In this document: positions 3 through 4,410 of the stretch, piece by piece
Layout: every line of letters starts with the position of its first letter
How positions within the stretch are numbered: position 1 is the first letter of the stretch
Assembly (NCBI GenBank): GCA_030590165.1
Contig: JAUUZA010000036.1
Location: forward strand, 1 to 6,198
Origin: Candidatus Altarchaeota archaeon
GTDB taxonomy: Archaea; SpSt-1190
Reading direction: 5' to 3'
DNA: 6,198 nucleotides
Made by a program: the position numbers and the translations under genes
The notes under the pieces: model-generated
What the model was told of the DNA's origin: nothing
What the model saw: the letters and a program-made list of their open reading frames with translations, nothing else
Database searches by the model: none

Positions 3-182
3 ATACGACATGAAAAAGATAATAAAAGTAAAATTATGTTCAATAAGCAAGCTGCATTCATGGGAAAAACAATGTTAGTCGATACCTATGATTTGAGTCC
101 AATGGGGGCCATTGTCTTAGACATAGTGGATTTCGGAGATGAATTTGTAAAATGGCTCACTGGATACGAGAGAAATCTATAA
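3..182 (+). CDS. 3' end of an unrecognised protein-coding gene (5' truncated by the window)
   Basis: An open frame runs from the window edge to a TAA at 180-182 and gives 59 residues. It contains the stretch KTMLVDTYDLSPMGAIVLDI and ends in WLTGYERNL. I do not recognise the family. The alternation of hydrophobic residues with D and G looks like folded protein rather than a chance frame, and the other plus-strand frames close early here. An ATG at 36 could begin a 48-residue protein, but the frame stays open upstream of it, so a truncated longer gene is more likely. Its last 26 bases overlap the 3' end of the DP1 gene on the other strand, a tail-to-tail arrangement. Function is unknown. Confidence refers only to its being a real gene. 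Confidence 0.5.
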   Translation: MRHEKDNKSKIMFNKQAAFMGKTMLVDTYDLSPMGAIVLDIVDFGDEFVKWLTGYERNL

Positions 183-1605
183 TCTTTGAGTTACCATCAC
201 TCAAATTCATTACAATAAATTGACCTGGTGTTGGTTCGTGACCTAATTTTTCTTGAAAGTCAGTAATATTCTGAAATGTTCCACTCGAAACTAATTTCAC
301 TCCCTTGTATGAACTAAGACTAACATTATGAATATGACCAGTATGAAAAACATGTGGAACTTTATTTATTACCATGAAATCTTGTTTGTCTGGGAAAATT
401 TTGTTTTTTCCAAAAATTGGAGAAAGGTGCCTCTTTTTCAATAATTGAATTTGAGCTAAATAAGGCCTATGATATGCATTATTACGAATGGATTCAATTG
501 CATCAATCACACCATCAAAACTTGTACCATGATACATCAAAATATTAATACCTTCAACATCAATCCAAGATGGATTTGAATATACTTCTAAATTATCAAT
601 TTTTTTTAGTGGTTTTCCAAAAACTTCAGGAAAAACTGGTTGTGGTTCTGAATCACGGTTGGGGTCATGATTCCCACTTATTACAAAAATTTTAACATCA
701 TGTCTAATCTGTTTCATATATTTAGCAAAGACCTCCATTTGTTCTTCAACTGTTTCAATGTCGAGATGTTCATTTTGTTTGTAATACATCCCAACTCCAT
801 CTACAACATCACCAGCAATAAACACATATTTGACTTCTTTATGTTCCTTTAACCATGAAATAAATCTTTCCCAGAGTTCAACCATAAATTTTTTTGAGCC
901 AACATGTAAATCAGAAATAAAAACAGCATAAGGACGCTCTCCAACCGGCCAAGTAATAGGAGTTATTTCTGGAAAAAATATAGCGTTTGCAAATAAAATT
1001 CCCCCACCAGTTCCAGGAAATCCTTTAATCCCAATAACTTCATCACAAACTATATCCCCTCTTTCAGGAATTGTTGTTGGAATTAAAATTGTAATTGAAC
1101 CTGACAAATCTTCAACAGTAAGAAAACGCCTGCCGTCCTTATTTTCTCTAATATTTCTAACCATCCCAATTATACTCAACTCTTCCCTAGTTTTAATCCG
1201 TGAAATTTGTGAAATAGAAATTGTGTTTTTCATTTGTGGTCTCTTCCACAAAAGTTGAGAAAGTGCACGATATCTATATGTAAAATGAGATATGAAATTT
1301 CCTGGTGTGACTGGGTCCCAATTTAAATAAGTTTTAAGTGCTCTATATTTTTGACCATCTAATTTTGTGTTATTTTGGAATAAATCATCTTTTTCAGCGA
1401 CATAAGTATTATTTTTTAGATTATGAAGAAAAGTTGATGTTATTTCACTTGGAATCTTATCCATTGCAAGAAGTTTATCCATAAGAAGTGAATCTGAACT
1501 CAAAAAACTAAAAGCCTCTTCATAAATTACACGAACTCCTCTTTGAAAAATTCTTTCAACTTTTTCCCTATTTGAATCTTGTTTCATAAATGCTTCGAGT
1601 CCCAT
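157..1605 (-). CDS. polB: DNA polymerase D (PolD/Pol II) small subunit DP1, Mre11-like 3'-5' exonuclease
   Basis: This is the proofreading subunit of the archaeal replicative polymerase PolD; it pairs with the catalytic large subunit DP2, which is not in the window. Residues 1-120 are a mostly helical N-terminal region. About 125-215 form an OB fold (RRFLTVEDLSGSITILIP at 159-176). About 225-460 form a calcineurin-like phosphoesterase domain. All its metal-site motifs are present: SDLHVGS (D232, H234), GDVVD (D266), GNHD (N312, H313), YHG (H359) and GHIH (H424, H426). The exonuclease site therefore looks intact, unlike the inactivated eukaryotic B subunits. At 482 residues it lies at the short end of the family, through a brief N-terminal region. 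The ATG at 1605 has GGTGG seven bases upstream, which supports it over the in-frame ATG at 1587. It overlaps the cdc6 stop by one base (TAATG), so the two are probably co-transcribed and translationally coupled. Archaeal symbols vary (polB, dp1, polD1). Confidence 0.96.
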   Translation of the reverse strand: MGLEAFMKQDSNREKVERIFQRGVRVIYEEAFSFLSSDSLLMDKLLAMDKIPSEITSTFLHNLKNNTYVAEKDDLFQNNTKLDGQKYRALKTYLNWDPVTPGNFISHFTYRYRALSQLLWKRPQMKNTISISQISRIKTREELSIIGMVRNIRENKDGRRFLTVEDLSGSITILIPTTIPERGDIVCDEVIGIKGFPGTGGGILFANAIFFPEITPITWPVGERPYAVFISDLHVGSKKFMVELWERFISWLKEHKEVKYVFIAGDVVDGVGMYYKQNEHLDIETVEEQMEVFAKYMKQIRHDVKIFVISGNHDPNRDSEPQPVFPEVFGKPLKKIDNLEVYSNPSWIDVEGINILMYHGTSFDGVIDAIESIRNNAYHRPYLAQIQLLKKRHLSPIFGKNKIFPDKQDFMVINKVPHVFHTGHIHNVSLSSYKGVKLVSSGTFQNITDFQEKLGHEPTPGQFIVMNLSDGNSKIIDFSRIQ

Positions 1606-2789
1606 TAAATTTCCACCAAAAGTTGTTCAATGTCGTCTTTAATATTTCCTCCGATTTTCAGTTCAACAACTTTAGTTCGTCCATACCTACCCCTAGATAT
1701 AACACTTGTACCCACAACCCCAGAGGACTCAAACTCACCTAAAATATCAAGAACTCGCCTCATAGTAAGTCCCTTAGCTCCAATTTTTGAAACATTTTCA
1801 ATATACTTATTATAAATTTCTCTAGTATACACAACCGGTTTGTCAAGCTCAATTATAGCTTTTAAAACATTTTTTTGATGTTCTGGAAGAGTTTTTACAA
1901 ATGAAATAATTTGATCTGTATTAAATTTCCCAATTGCAACTTCAACATGTTTTCTTAAGACTTTATTTGAGGCTTCACGCTCCGCAATCTCCGCAGAAAT
2001 TCTTAGGAGTTCAATGGCTCGCCTAACGTCACCATGATTTTTGGCAGCGGACGCAGCACAAAGTAAAATTACTGAATCATTAATTGCACCTGGCGAAAAC
2101 GAAATATTACTTCTATCTTGGAGTATGTCTTTGATTTGATTTGCATTATACGGCGAAAAAATAATTTCTTCTTCTGAAAGACTTGATTTTGTCTTAGCAT
2201 CAAGATGACTCATTATACTCAAATCATTAGTTATACCTATGATTGAAAGTTTTGAATTTTTGAGTTCTGAATTAATTCTTGAAAGAGTATAAATTGTATT
2301 TGGGCTTTTTTCAATTAAAACATCAATTTCATCAAGAGCTAAGATGTAAACTGCAGGTTTACTGTCGAGTGCTTTTATCATTCTATCAAAAACTGAACTC
2401 GTAGGAATACCAGTATCTGGAATAAAATCTCCCATCCTCCTACAAAGATAAGCATAAAGTCTATACTCAGTATCTGCTATTTTTTTCAAGCCAGAATTAA
2501 CATATAAAAATTTTACTGGAATATTTTTATCTTGAGCTATTTTTTGGAGTTGTGAACCGACATATTGAACTACTGCTGTCTTTCCAGTTCCAGGTCTCCC
2601 ATATAAAAACACATTCGAAGGATTTTCAAGTCGTAGTGAAGGTGCTAAAATTTGAGCTAAATGCTTAATATGATTTTCACGGTGTGGTAAAACATCTGGT
2701 AAATATGAAGATTGTAAAAAATCTTTCCTTGCAAAAATTACACTCCCAGACGCATAAAAATTGAATATTTTTTCTATATCTGTTTTCAC
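1605..2789 (-). CDS. cdc6: Orc1/Cdc6 replication initiator (AAA+ ATPase with winged helix)
   Basis: It binds origin repeats (ORB boxes), melts or remodels origin DNA and recruits the MCM helicase. With the GTG start it has 394 residues, typical for the family. Residue numbers here count from the upstream TTG at 2804; subtract five for the GTG start. Walker A is GRPGTGKT (69-76), Walker B LALDEID (155-161), sensor 1 IIGITND (188-194) and sensor 2 GDVRRAIELLR (258-268). Residues from about 300 form the winged helix, with wing RGRYGRT (371-377). The usual DxRvkSS of box VII reads DAKTKSS, with Lys at 204 in place of Arg. Start: no ATG is in frame. TTG 2804 would give five extra residues. GTG 2789 lies where a leaderless mRNA would begin, about 26 bases downstream of the centre of a TATA-like box, so I prefer it. 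It is the first gene of an operon with DP1 and faces away from the candidate origin. Confidence 0.96.
   Translation of the reverse strand: MKTDIEKIFNFYASGSVIFARKDFLQSSYLPDVLPHRENHIKHLAQILAPSLRLENPSNVFLYGRPGTGKTAVVQYVGSQLQKIAQDKNIPVKFLYVNSGLKKIADTEYRLYAYLCRRMGDFIPDTGIPTSSVFDRMIKALDSKPAVYILALDEIDVLIEKSPNTIYTLSRINSELKNSKLSIIGITNDLSIMSHLDAKTKSSLSEEEIIFSPYNANQIKDILQDRSNISFSPGAINDSVILLCAASAAKNHGDVRRAIELLRISAEIAEREASNKVLRKHVEVAIGKFNTDQIISFVKTLPEHQKNVLKAIIELDKPVVYTREIYNKYIENVSKIGAKGLTMRRVLDILGEFESSGVVGTSVISRGRYGRTKVVELKIGGNIKDDIEQLLVEI
1613..1617 (-). promoter_or_regulatory. Shine-Dalgarno site of the DP1 gene
   Basis: GGTGG on the minus strand lies seven bases before the DP1 ATG, inside the last codons of cdc6. 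It resembles the archaeal GGTGA/GGAGG motif that pairs with the 3' end of 16S rRNA. It fixes the DP1 start at 1605. Confidence 0.75.
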
Positions 2790-2809
2790 ATCTCTATTAC
2801 ACAAAAAAA

Positions 2810-2827: not shown

Positions 2828-2900
2828 TTCCTATGGCATTACTTCCTTTGGAACATAACCTTCATTTCCTATGGAACCTCCCCTTAATTTCTAATGGAAC
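2828..2900 (+). repeat. Four direct ORB-like dyads (left arm of candidate origin)
   Basis: Copies are TTCCTATGGCA (2828-2838), TTCCTTTGGAA (2843-2853), TTCCTATGGAA (2866-2876) and TTCTAATGGAA (2889-2899). The last three are each followed by C and start exactly 23 bp apart, close to two helical turns, which would place bound proteins on one face of the DNA. The second and third match TTCCnnTGGAA perfectly; the first and fourth each differ at one position. A CCTCCCC tract follows the third copy (2877-2883). The G-tract of classical ORBs follows the dyad on the same strand, so this tract has the opposite strand sense. Confidence 0.75.
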
Positions 2901-2930: not shown

Positions 2931-2944
2931 TTTCAATATTGAAA
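2931..2944. repeat. 14-bp perfect palindrome, copy 1
   Basis: TTTCAATATTGAAA is a perfect palindrome at the left edge of the A/T segment. A copy with one mismatch lies at 3032-3045. The sequence differs from the ORB-like dyad, so a second protein may bind it. The adjacent winged-helix gene product is the obvious candidate, by inference only. Confidence 0.5.
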
Positions 2945-3001
2945 AAATTATATATAGATATTACTATATAGATATAATATTAATATATAATATATACATA
3001 T
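2945..3001. other. A/T-only segment, candidate DNA unwinding element
   Basis: Only 5 of the 60 bases at 2941-3000 are G or C. The segment includes an 11-bp direct repeat, TATATAGATAT, at 2951-2961 and 2965-2975 (14-bp period), followed by a TAATATATAATATATA run. Low melting stability and a position between opposed ORB-like sites fit the role of a duplex unwinding element. No convincing frame or start codon reads through it. Confidence 0.6.
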
Positions 3002-3013
3002 GTTCCATAAGAA
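3002..3013 (-). repeat. Inverted ORB-like dyad (right arm of candidate origin)
   Basis: On the minus strand this reads TTCTTATGGAAC. It differs by one base from the fourth left-hand copy (TTCTAATGGAAC) and by one from the third (TTCCTATGGAAC). Its inverted orientation and its place on the far side of the A/T segment give the usual arrangement of initiator sites facing a melting region. Confidence 0.6.
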
Positions 3014-3031
3014 ACCAAGGACTGTGTGTTT

Positions 3032-3045
3032 TTTCCATATTGAAA
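3032..3045. repeat. 14-bp palindrome, copy 2, abutting the winged-helix gene promoter
   Basis: TTTCCATATTGAAA matches the copy at 2931-2944 at 13 of 14 positions and starts 101 bp after it. It ends just before the TATA-like box of the 3076 gene and covers the BRE position, a place where a bound repressor would block transcription. Confidence 0.45.
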
Positions 3046-3055
3046 ATTTTTTAAA
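3042..3055 (+). promoter_or_regulatory. Probable BRE/TATA promoter of the winged-helix gene
   Basis: GAAAA (BRE-like, 3042-3046) is followed by TTTTTTAAA (3047-3055), which begins 29 bases before the ATG at 3076. There is no ribosome-binding motif before the ATG (AAATCAAATAAAAAT), so a leaderless mRNA is likely. The box is a weak match to the archaeal TATA consensus. Confidence 0.4.
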
Positions 3056-3075: not shown

Positions 3076-3567
3076 ATGAAATTCGGTTTAATATTAAATG
3101 GGCCTGTTGAAGACCTTAAATTTAGGGCTAATAAACTCAATCCAAATGTTCCTCTAATTATTATTGATGAAAATACTTATGATGATGTAGACCTTTTTGT
3201 TGTATTTGTTTTTGAACCCTTTAGAAAAAAGGCAGAGCATTTCAATGAACTTCGTTTACAAAAGAAAATTTCACCTTTTGCAATAATGGAATTTCCTCTT
3301 CATAAAGTTAGACCTATAGTAAAAAATTCAGTTAGGTCAAGAATAGTAGAAATATTAAAAGACGGAAAGGCATATGGATATCAAATTTTTAAAAAATATA
3401 AAGAAAGATATGGTAAAATTTCAATTAGATTAATTTATTATCATTTACAAAAAGGTGAAAAAGATGGTTTATTTGAGAAGGTTGAAATTGAAGAAAAGTC
3501 AGGAAATTTTTCTTGGGGTGGAACGGTTAAACACAAATATTACAAATTAAAGTTCCTTGTGGATTAG
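3076..3567 (+). CDS. Small protein with C-terminal PadR-like winged helix, origin-linked, function unknown
   Basis: It encodes 163 residues with no membrane segment or signal peptide. The N-terminal part (1-80) alternates strands and charged helices (MKFGLILNGP; VPLIIIDENT; VDLFVVFVFEPF) and looks like a small alpha/beta domain that I do not recognise. Residues 86-158 resemble a PadR-type winged helix: RIVEILKDGKAYGYQIFKKY, then ISIRLIYYHLQKGEKDGLFEKV as recognition helix and following turn, then a wing with KHKYYKL. DNA binding is therefore likely; whether it is a regulator or a replication factor is open. It is transcribed away from the candidate origin, divergently from cdc6, and one of two related palindromes touches its promoter, so autoregulation is plausible. 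Its last 21 bases overlap the 3' end of the opposing membrane-protein gene. No other upstream start is in frame close by, and base use matches the neighbours. Confidence 0.85.
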   Translation: MKFGLILNGPVEDLKFRANKLNPNVPLIIIDENTYDDVDLFVVFVFEPFRKKAEHFNELRLQKKISPFAIMEFPLHKVRPIVKNSVRSRIVEILKDGKAYGYQIFKKYKERYGKISIRLIYYHLQKGEKDGLFEKVEIEEKSGNFSWGGTVKHKYYKLKFLVD

Positions 3568-4410
3568 GAAATTTCCAATTATGGCGGGAAGCCAGAGGTT
3601 GAAGAATCTAAAAACAAAAACACCACCAACTGCGGCGGTTTGATTTACTCCAAGACTGATAAGGTATGCTGGAACGGCCACCTCATAAAAACCTATACCT
3701 GCTATTGTTGGTGTTGTGGTCATTATTCCTATTCCCATTATTAGTGCTTTTAATCCGTTTACAAAACTACTACCAGTAGCAACACTTAATGCGGCGGCGC
3801 TTGAGAAAAATTGAATAAAACTAATAATTAAAAGAAAAAAGATAGACCGGACATTCAAAAGGGATTTGAGATTTTCACTAAAATCTTTCAAAATATTAAG
3901 AAATTTTATATTGGGAATTTTATGAGAAAATTTTACAAATAAAAAGGTGAGAAGTAGTAAGATACAGAGAGCAATAAAAAGAAAAATATTGTATTGACCA
4001 AGAAAAAGTGCAAACATAATTCCAGTCACAAAAAGACTAATAACAATTTCACCGACATAGGCCGTCATTGCTTGAGACAAAATAATTCCTTTCTTTTTAA
4101 GATAATAAATTTTTATAGAATCACTAAATCTTATCATAGAAAAAACAGGAGAAAGGGAAATAAAATAACACTTAAATACAGTCCAAAAATTGATTAAACC
4201 TCCTTGTTTTTTAATTAAATACTTTAAACGGAAGGTCCCTACAATTACTGAAAGGAGAATAAACAAAAAAGTTAATAGGATACTTAGATTTAATTGTATT
4301 GCATAATAAAAACTTTCCACTAATATTTCTCGATACCTATATATTCCAAAAGGTATTAAAACCCCTAGTATCAGCTTAAGCCATTGCACATGAAATAGTG
4401 CATGACGCAT
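3547..4410 (-). CDS. Flippase-like integral membrane protein (UPF0104 / LPG synthase TM-domain, AglD-type)
   Basis: The 287 residues are almost entirely hydrophobic, with about eight likely membrane segments (around 11-25, 41-62, 75-92, 117-137, 140-161, 188-208, 215-235 and 258-283). The C-terminal signature TTPTIAGIGFYEVAVPAYLI, followed by GVNQTAAVGGVFVFRFFNLW, is that of the COG0392 family. This family covers the membrane part of bacterial lysylphosphatidylglycerol synthases and the archaeal AglD/AglR proteins, which are linked to dolichol-sugar handling in N-glycosylation. The soluble synthase domain is absent, so a role in moving or modifying lipid-linked molecules is the best guess; substrate unknown. 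The ATG at 4410 has no ribosome-binding site. The in-frame GTG at 4389 has TTTTTTAAA starting 29 bases upstream, as for the 3076 gene, and would give a 280-residue protein beginning just before the first membrane segment. Either start is possible. It overlaps the winged-helix gene at its 3' end and is divergent from rpl3. Confidence 0.87.
   Translation of the reverse strand: MRHALFHVQWLKLILGVLIPFGIYRYREILVESFYYAIQLNLSILLTFLFILLSVIVGTFRLKYLIKKQGGLINFWTVFKCYFISLSPVFSMIRFSDSIKIYYLKKKGIILSQAMTAYVGEIVISLFVTGIMFALFLGQYNIFLFIALCILLLLTFLFVKFSHKIPNIKFLNILKDFSENLKSLLNVRSIFFLLIISFIQFFSSAAALSVATGSSFVNGLKALIMGIGIMTTTPTIAGIGFYEVAVPAYLISLGVNQTAAVGGVFVFRFFNLWLPAIIGNFLIHKEL

Follow-up and report, generated by a model that had tools for sequence, protein, structure and literature searches.

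Archaeal Cdc6 origins usually consist of ORBs placed around an AT-rich stretch beside cdc6 (PMC4010727). In Sulfolobus, the DUE between the ORBs contains the ucm motif, which is bound by UBP, an essential protein that contacts MCM and is proposed to bridge MCM hexamers (PMC12141716). UBP is a saddle-shaped dimer with stirrup loops and has hundreds of sites in the genome, and ucm is not described as palindromic (PMC12141716). WhiP, the winged-helix protein encoded beside Sulfolobus oriC3, is the initiator of a Cdc6-less origin and is related to Cdt1 (PMC4010727).

The window, a 6,198-nucleotide stretch of DNA from a Candidatus Altarchaeota archaeon that was analyzed as a whole, contains a predicted origin and, facing it, the gene of a small winged-helix (wHTH) protein. 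No origin-binding accessory factor for DPANN archaea was described in the papers retrieved and, to our knowledge, almost nothing is known about how replication starts in this group. The reading we favor, and hold to be fairly probable, is that the protein is a dedicated origin-binding factor. Its dimer would occupy a palindrome, TTTCNATATNGAAA, between inverted ORBs, where it would organize or regulate initiation, and the protein would probably repress its own gene.

The gene (3076..3567, + strand) is an open reading frame with an ATG start that encodes 163 amino acids, composed of a remnant of a phosphopantetheine adenylyltransferase (PPAT) domain and a winged helix. Judged by its conservation in five genomes of the same family, it is a real gene. 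The homologues in G006, G005, G003, and G004 share 60, 56, 45, and 38% identity with it, each as a single open frame, and the homologue in G002 is cut off at the end of a contig. Its divergent neighbor is orc1/cdc6 (1605..2804, - strand; TIGR02928, E=1.3e-109), the likely initiator of the adjacent origin, so the first-pass annotation was correct in placing an uncharacterized winged-helix ORF divergent from cdc6. The gene of the DNA polymerase D small subunit, DP1 (157..1605, - strand), adjoins cdc6, as it does in relatives. The order in the window is DP1 (-), orc1/cdc6 (-), an AT-rich intergenic region of 271 bp that contains ORB-like repeats, wHTH (+), an LPG_synthase_TM-type membrane protein (-), rpl3 (+), and rpl4 (+). 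The LPG_synthase_TM-like gene (3547-4410, - strand) and the wHTH gene overlap at the 3' end of the latter. Copies of the LPG_synthase_TM-like gene occur in G005 and G003; none was seen in G006, G004, and G002, where rpl3 directly follows the wHTH gene. The order DP1-cdc6-wHTH is common to the window family and G008 (L070, L071, L074). The orientation of DP2 varies, being opposite to DP1 at L070 and L071 and on the same strand at L074.

The intergenic region is, as predicted from sequence, an oriC of the Orc1/Cdc6 type: it is AT-rich, flanked by ORBs, and located beside cdc6. On the cdc6 side there are four ORB-like repeats (about 2824-2900), three of them good and the fourth weaker. The good copies are at 2882..2900 (CCTTAATTTCTAATGGAAC, a fuzzy ORB match), 2859..2877 (CCTTCATTTCCTATGGAAC), and 2843..2854 (TTCCTTTGGAAC), and the weaker one is at about 2824-2837. 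A very AT-rich stretch then precedes the repeat of the wHTH side (3002..3020, GTTCCATAAGAAACCAAGG), which has the opposite orientation.

The palindrome is distinct from the ORBs and was noticed by eye in all the cdc6-linked origins that were read. The window family has three copies at aligned positions, two in the AT-rich center and one by the wHTH promoter. Site 1 (2931..2944, TTTCAATATTGAAA) is located in the AT-rich center between the opposing ORBs, in the same place in G004-G006. Site 2 (2961..2974, TTACTATATAGATA) is weaker; it is aligned and conserved in four genomes. Site 3 (3032..3045, TTTCCATATTGAAA), a candidate autoregulatory operator, is the best conserved, with nearly all columns invariant in four genomes, and abuts the TATA-like TTTTTTAAA (3047-3055) of the wHTH gene. 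The strict form, TTTCHATATDGAAA, has two copies in the 724 kb genome, at 2931-2944 and 3032-3045, where 0.26 are expected genome-wide. A looser form, TTTYNATATNGAAA, has two further matches elsewhere in the genome. The operator pair that had been put forward as a candidate is thus real and origin-specific, its two members being the only strict copies.

The winged-helix domain comprises residues about 86-158 (3331..3549, + strand), as delimited by alignments, the AlphaFold2 (AF2) model of the protein (mean pLDDT 94), and fold matches. The recognition helix is formed by residues 117-129 and the wing, a long one, by the hairpin 133-158. Residues R87, Y102, YYH 121-123, G127, G143, W147, G148, and Y156 are invariant in 27 diverse members. 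Foldseek with the wHTH model places PadR chains on top (best E=6.7e-5), and in VIA-align the domain is matched by repressors such as MecI and RosR (Z about 12, over about 70-77 residues at rmsd 1.3-1.8).

PadR-family regulators are dimers that bind palindromic operators. The window protein shares the wHTH fold of this family (LmrR, PadR) and has weak sequence similarity to it, with a Pfam PadR (PF03551) score of 18.6 bits (E=0.0018), below the 27-bit cut-off; the relatives reach at most 21.3 bits, also below it. Unlike PadR, it has YYH and [ST]WG motifs and operators within an origin, and the C-terminal dimerization helix was not found in the AF2 model, which stops at the strand 148-158 plus five residues. 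Searches of NCBIfam and PHROGs gave no usable name for the protein. The domain had been called a PadR-like winged helix, which was right in kind; it represents an undescribed, PadR-like family with invariant YYH and WG motifs. A literature search, with subscription journals and preprints mostly outside it, found no description of this family or of the palindrome motif.

Among proteins of replication, the window protein is like WhiP in being a winged-helix protein encoded beside an archaeal origin. It differs in that the origin here has cdc6 and ORB-like repeats and the protein has one PadR-like wHTH, and the earlier judgment that it is not WhiP-like holds. Bacillus RTP (1f4k) is also a winged helix with a replication role, which is proposed here for the window protein; the Foldseek match is weak (rank 36), RTP acts at the terminus and not the origin, and there is no evidence of homology beyond the fold. 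With ucm and UBP, the locus shares a conserved DUE motif midway between ORBs and a small, basic non-initiator protein, here a candidate binder. Unlike UBP, the window protein is a winged helix and not a saddle with stirrup loops, and, in contrast to the hundreds of UBP sites, most genomes here have between one and a few strict palindromes. The resemblance appears to be one of arrangement and not of ancestry, the two proteins not being homologous on this evidence.

The N-terminal domain comprises residues 1-82 (3076..3321, + strand) and is read as an eroded PPAT, a nucleotidyltransferase of the HxGH superfamily. In G008, a genome of the same class (L020/L074), a longer homologue beside cdc6 is a full PPAT fused to the same wHTH. 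The N-terminus of this fusion matches PRK00777 (E=7e-17) and the A. fulgidus PPAT (PDB 3do8, E=3.5e-8) and keeps the HKGH and SSTRIREG motifs. The G004 homologue matches PPAT models over their central and C-terminal portions (PRK01170, E=1e-4, also 1e-3). Given a model of the window domain alone, Foldseek and VIA-align both rank 3do8 first, Foldseek with E=4.4e-3 and TMq 0.63 and VIA-align with Z 7.7 (next Z 6.3) at rmsd 3.3 over 80 aligned residues. Direct comparison of the reduced domain with the G008 PPAT domain by hhalign is weak (probability 23%, 31 columns), and the assignment therefore rests on the homology chain and the structure. The structural score is modest by itself; read with the sequence chain, the predicted fold marks the domain as a PPAT remnant without the catalytic segments. 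Its fold and ancestry are those of archaeal PPAT (COG1019; 3do8), whereas the HxGH and SSTRIR motifs, kept in the G008 fusion, are absent from the window protein and from G003 and G004-G006. A search for PF01467 domains throughout G000, G002, G003, G005, and G006 gave no match. The first-pass annotation had described an unrecognized alpha/beta domain; alpha/beta was correct, and the domain is now recognizable as a reduced PPAT.

Most other members of the family have no PPAT domain and start with M-x-RGRP-x2-S-x-IRQ. This short, basic N-terminus would, from its sequence, be an AT-hook-like tail, and the PPAT-derived N-terminus is a peculiarity of the window's class. Fusions of enzyme and regulator of the NadR type are known. 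The PPAT-winged-helix fusion of G008 (L020, 9213-9959) recalls them and is a candidate, possibly, for an active enzyme.

A scan of genome contigs with the window protein as a single sequence gave no match; an alignment of the wHTH domain as query gave 98 loci. The wHTH profile (A2) was found in 31 of the 394 archaeal genomes sampled around the window and in 99 of the 188 genomes of G284's class, mostly titled Woesearchaeota or Nanoarchaeota; the genomes are drafts, some less than 90% complete, and calls of absence can be wrong. The wHTH gene is within a few kb of cdc6 in G000, G004, G005, G006, G008, G020, G042, G062, G082, and G121, and at two Undinarchaeales loci (L142, L145). It is also near cdc6 in G394, G397 (locus L103), G399 (locus L080), G400, G401, G402, G404, and G447. 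In most Woesearchaeota, the gene is located away from cdc6. The neighbors of these unlinked genes (L022, L024, L075-L149) include an M50-type protease-like gene at 44 loci, an eIF5A-like gene at 36, and an RNA methyltransferase-like gene at 27, which suggests a conserved cluster; the protease and eIF5A-like labels are presumed from sequence. One contig titled Aminicenantes bacterium (JAFCCF010000010.1, L096) carries a DPANN wHTH, probably through a binning error.

In G002, G003, G004, G005, G006, G008, G284, G336, and G248, every strict copy of the palindrome is at cdc6 or at the adjacent wHTH gene. The wHTH gene of G284, G336, and G248 is on another contig, and the sole strict copy in each genome is at the origin and not at the wHTH gene. 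Reading the pattern backward, as a control, gave a single copy in G248, two in G336, and none in the remaining genomes, G002-G006, G008, and G284. A chance origin of the palindrome was rejected by this control and by null shuffles.

A symmetric weight matrix was built from 17 linked-origin sites. It was applied to the 700 bp upstream of cdc6, extended by 60 bp, of genomes that had not contributed to it. At least 13 bits, a threshold chosen once the first scores were known (results at 12 and 14 are similar), was reached upstream of cdc6 by 30 of 40 test genomes with the wHTH and by none of 17 genomes of the same class without it, where the maximum is 8.2 (Fisher P=6e-8 by genome). Counted by family, the palindrome is present in 22/26 with the wHTH and 0/11 without (P=1.6e-6). 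If only the nine controls possessing a main Cdc6 and recognizable ORBs are used, none has it (0/9, P=4.5e-5). In other archaea without the wHTH, 0/40 cdc6 regions are positive (best 11.6), and G007, a member of the window's class that has no wHTH, scores 5.2. By hand count, the palindrome is present in 23 of the 32 genomes whose wHTH gene is unlinked, and linkage of the genes is thus not the source of the correlation.

Against the favored reading, ten of the 40 test genomes with the wHTH fall below the cut-off, although most of these have copies that are degenerate or lie somewhat too far away. In G082, two good palindromes are located just beyond the scored 700 bp. Both genomes seen of family f76 have a diverged wHTH (E about 1e-12) and a different perfect palindrome, TTATTCTATATAGAATAA, and this joint divergence favors a link between protein and site; family f20 has half-degenerate palindromes between its ORBs. 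Two further points weigh against the reading. Origins of the G042/G062 type have a different half-site (TATC), and some genomes have several strict palindromes off the origin (G319 with 11 palindromes, G087 with 8, G266 with 7, and G121 with 10), which may represent extra origins or a widened regulon. Clusters include G319 C2:82962-83098 and three copies near cdc6 in G087 (760955-763710), and those of G121 are mostly TTTCCATATGGAAA.

The position of the palindrome relative to the ORBs was examined with a fuzzy pattern drawn from the origins themselves, which replaced a strict ORB pattern that had found too few. Among strong matches, the ORBs face the palindrome, with 43 left-forward and 41 right-reverse copies versus 11 and 4 in the opposite orientations. 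A facing pair surrounds it in 21 of 41 origins, at median distances of 101 and 61 bp. The AT content around the palindrome is at a median of the 95th percentile of the region. In Woesearchaeota, its distance to cdc6 is very variable (about -30 to -700), yet it remains central between the ORBs. The palindrome was rejected as an ORB by its different sequence and its single, central placement. A second Cdc6 was likewise rejected as its ligand: the palindrome is present in G020 and G042, where one Cdc6 is seen, and absent from G354, G370, G387, and G433, which have two.

A narrower explanation is that the protein is a palindrome-binding transcription factor only, a repressor of its own gene that also tunes cdc6, and that its presence at the origin reflects the shared promoter region. 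The placement of site 3, the best conserved, against the wHTH promoter fits this, as do the repressors among the fold relatives. We nevertheless hold it to be rather unlikely. The DUE sites of the window family are beyond four ORB-like repeats from cdc6, and the genomes with the wHTH on another contig (G284, G336, G248) have their sole strict copy at the origin. The variable distance to cdc6 in Woesearchaeota, combined with the ORB-centered position, favors an origin role over transcription of cdc6. An ordinary metabolic regulator of the PadR type or NadR-like, sensing CoA or pantetheine and beside cdc6 by chance, is highly improbable. Such a protein would have the PadR-like fold and, given the precedent of NadR-type fusions, the PPAT ancestry seen here, but the window genome has no strict operator off the origin, the catalytic motifs of PPAT have been lost, the domain itself is missing from most family members, and G000 has no PF01467 domain of any kind.

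The palindrome could also be a DPANN origin element of another protein, or a structural unwinding element, with which the wHTH co-occurs by ancestry or linkage. Co-occurrence and neighborhood are not proof of contact, and a palindromic A+T-rich element in the DUE could act as a DNA structure. This we consider improbable, as the same-class origins that have ORBs and no wHTH are without the palindrome in nine of nine cases, the association persists at the level of families, a copy is located on the wHTH promoter, and the comparison of single- and two-Cdc6 genomes excludes a second Cdc6 paralogue as the cause. Returning to the dedicated origin-binding factor, the presence of the wHTH tracks the origin palindrome across DPANN archaea, which makes such a factor probable in place of an ordinary gene regulator. 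The first-pass annotation had suggested an origin-side regulator of initiation, and the comparative evidence strongly supports it: the palindrome is confined to the origin and tracks the protein in cis and in trans. It had also counted homologues scattered away from cdc6 against the idea. The wHTH gene is indeed off cdc6 in most Woesearchaeota, but there the cdc6 origin retains the palindrome, in trans to the gene, and the idea is strengthened by this.

In the proposed mechanism, the wHTH protein would recognize TTTCNATATNGAAA as a dimer. The palindrome lies in the AT-rich DUE, central between the inverted ORBs to which Orc1/Cdc6 would bind. At these central sites the protein may assist or limit initiation, by acting on MCM loading, on unwinding, or chiefly on the transcription of cdc6. 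The extra copy on its own promoter in the window family indicates that the protein probably also represses itself, and repression through site 3 would tie its level to origin occupancy. Its N-terminal PPAT domain is reduced and non-catalytic, with the AT-hook-like RGRP tail in its place in most relatives.

A more far-reaching possibility, which we regard as doubtful, is that the protein is an old origin-core factor of DPANN archaea, made up of an AT-hook-like tail and a wHTH. It would be located between two MCM loading sites, would be needed for firing, and would be convergent with UBP. In the window's class, the N-terminus rebuilt from PPAT may let CoA precursors or nucleotides gate initiation. 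The candidate pair is composed of one small soluble protein and one 14-bp palindrome and could be tested in vitro without growing the organism. The palindrome motif would mark replication origins in many uncultured genomes.
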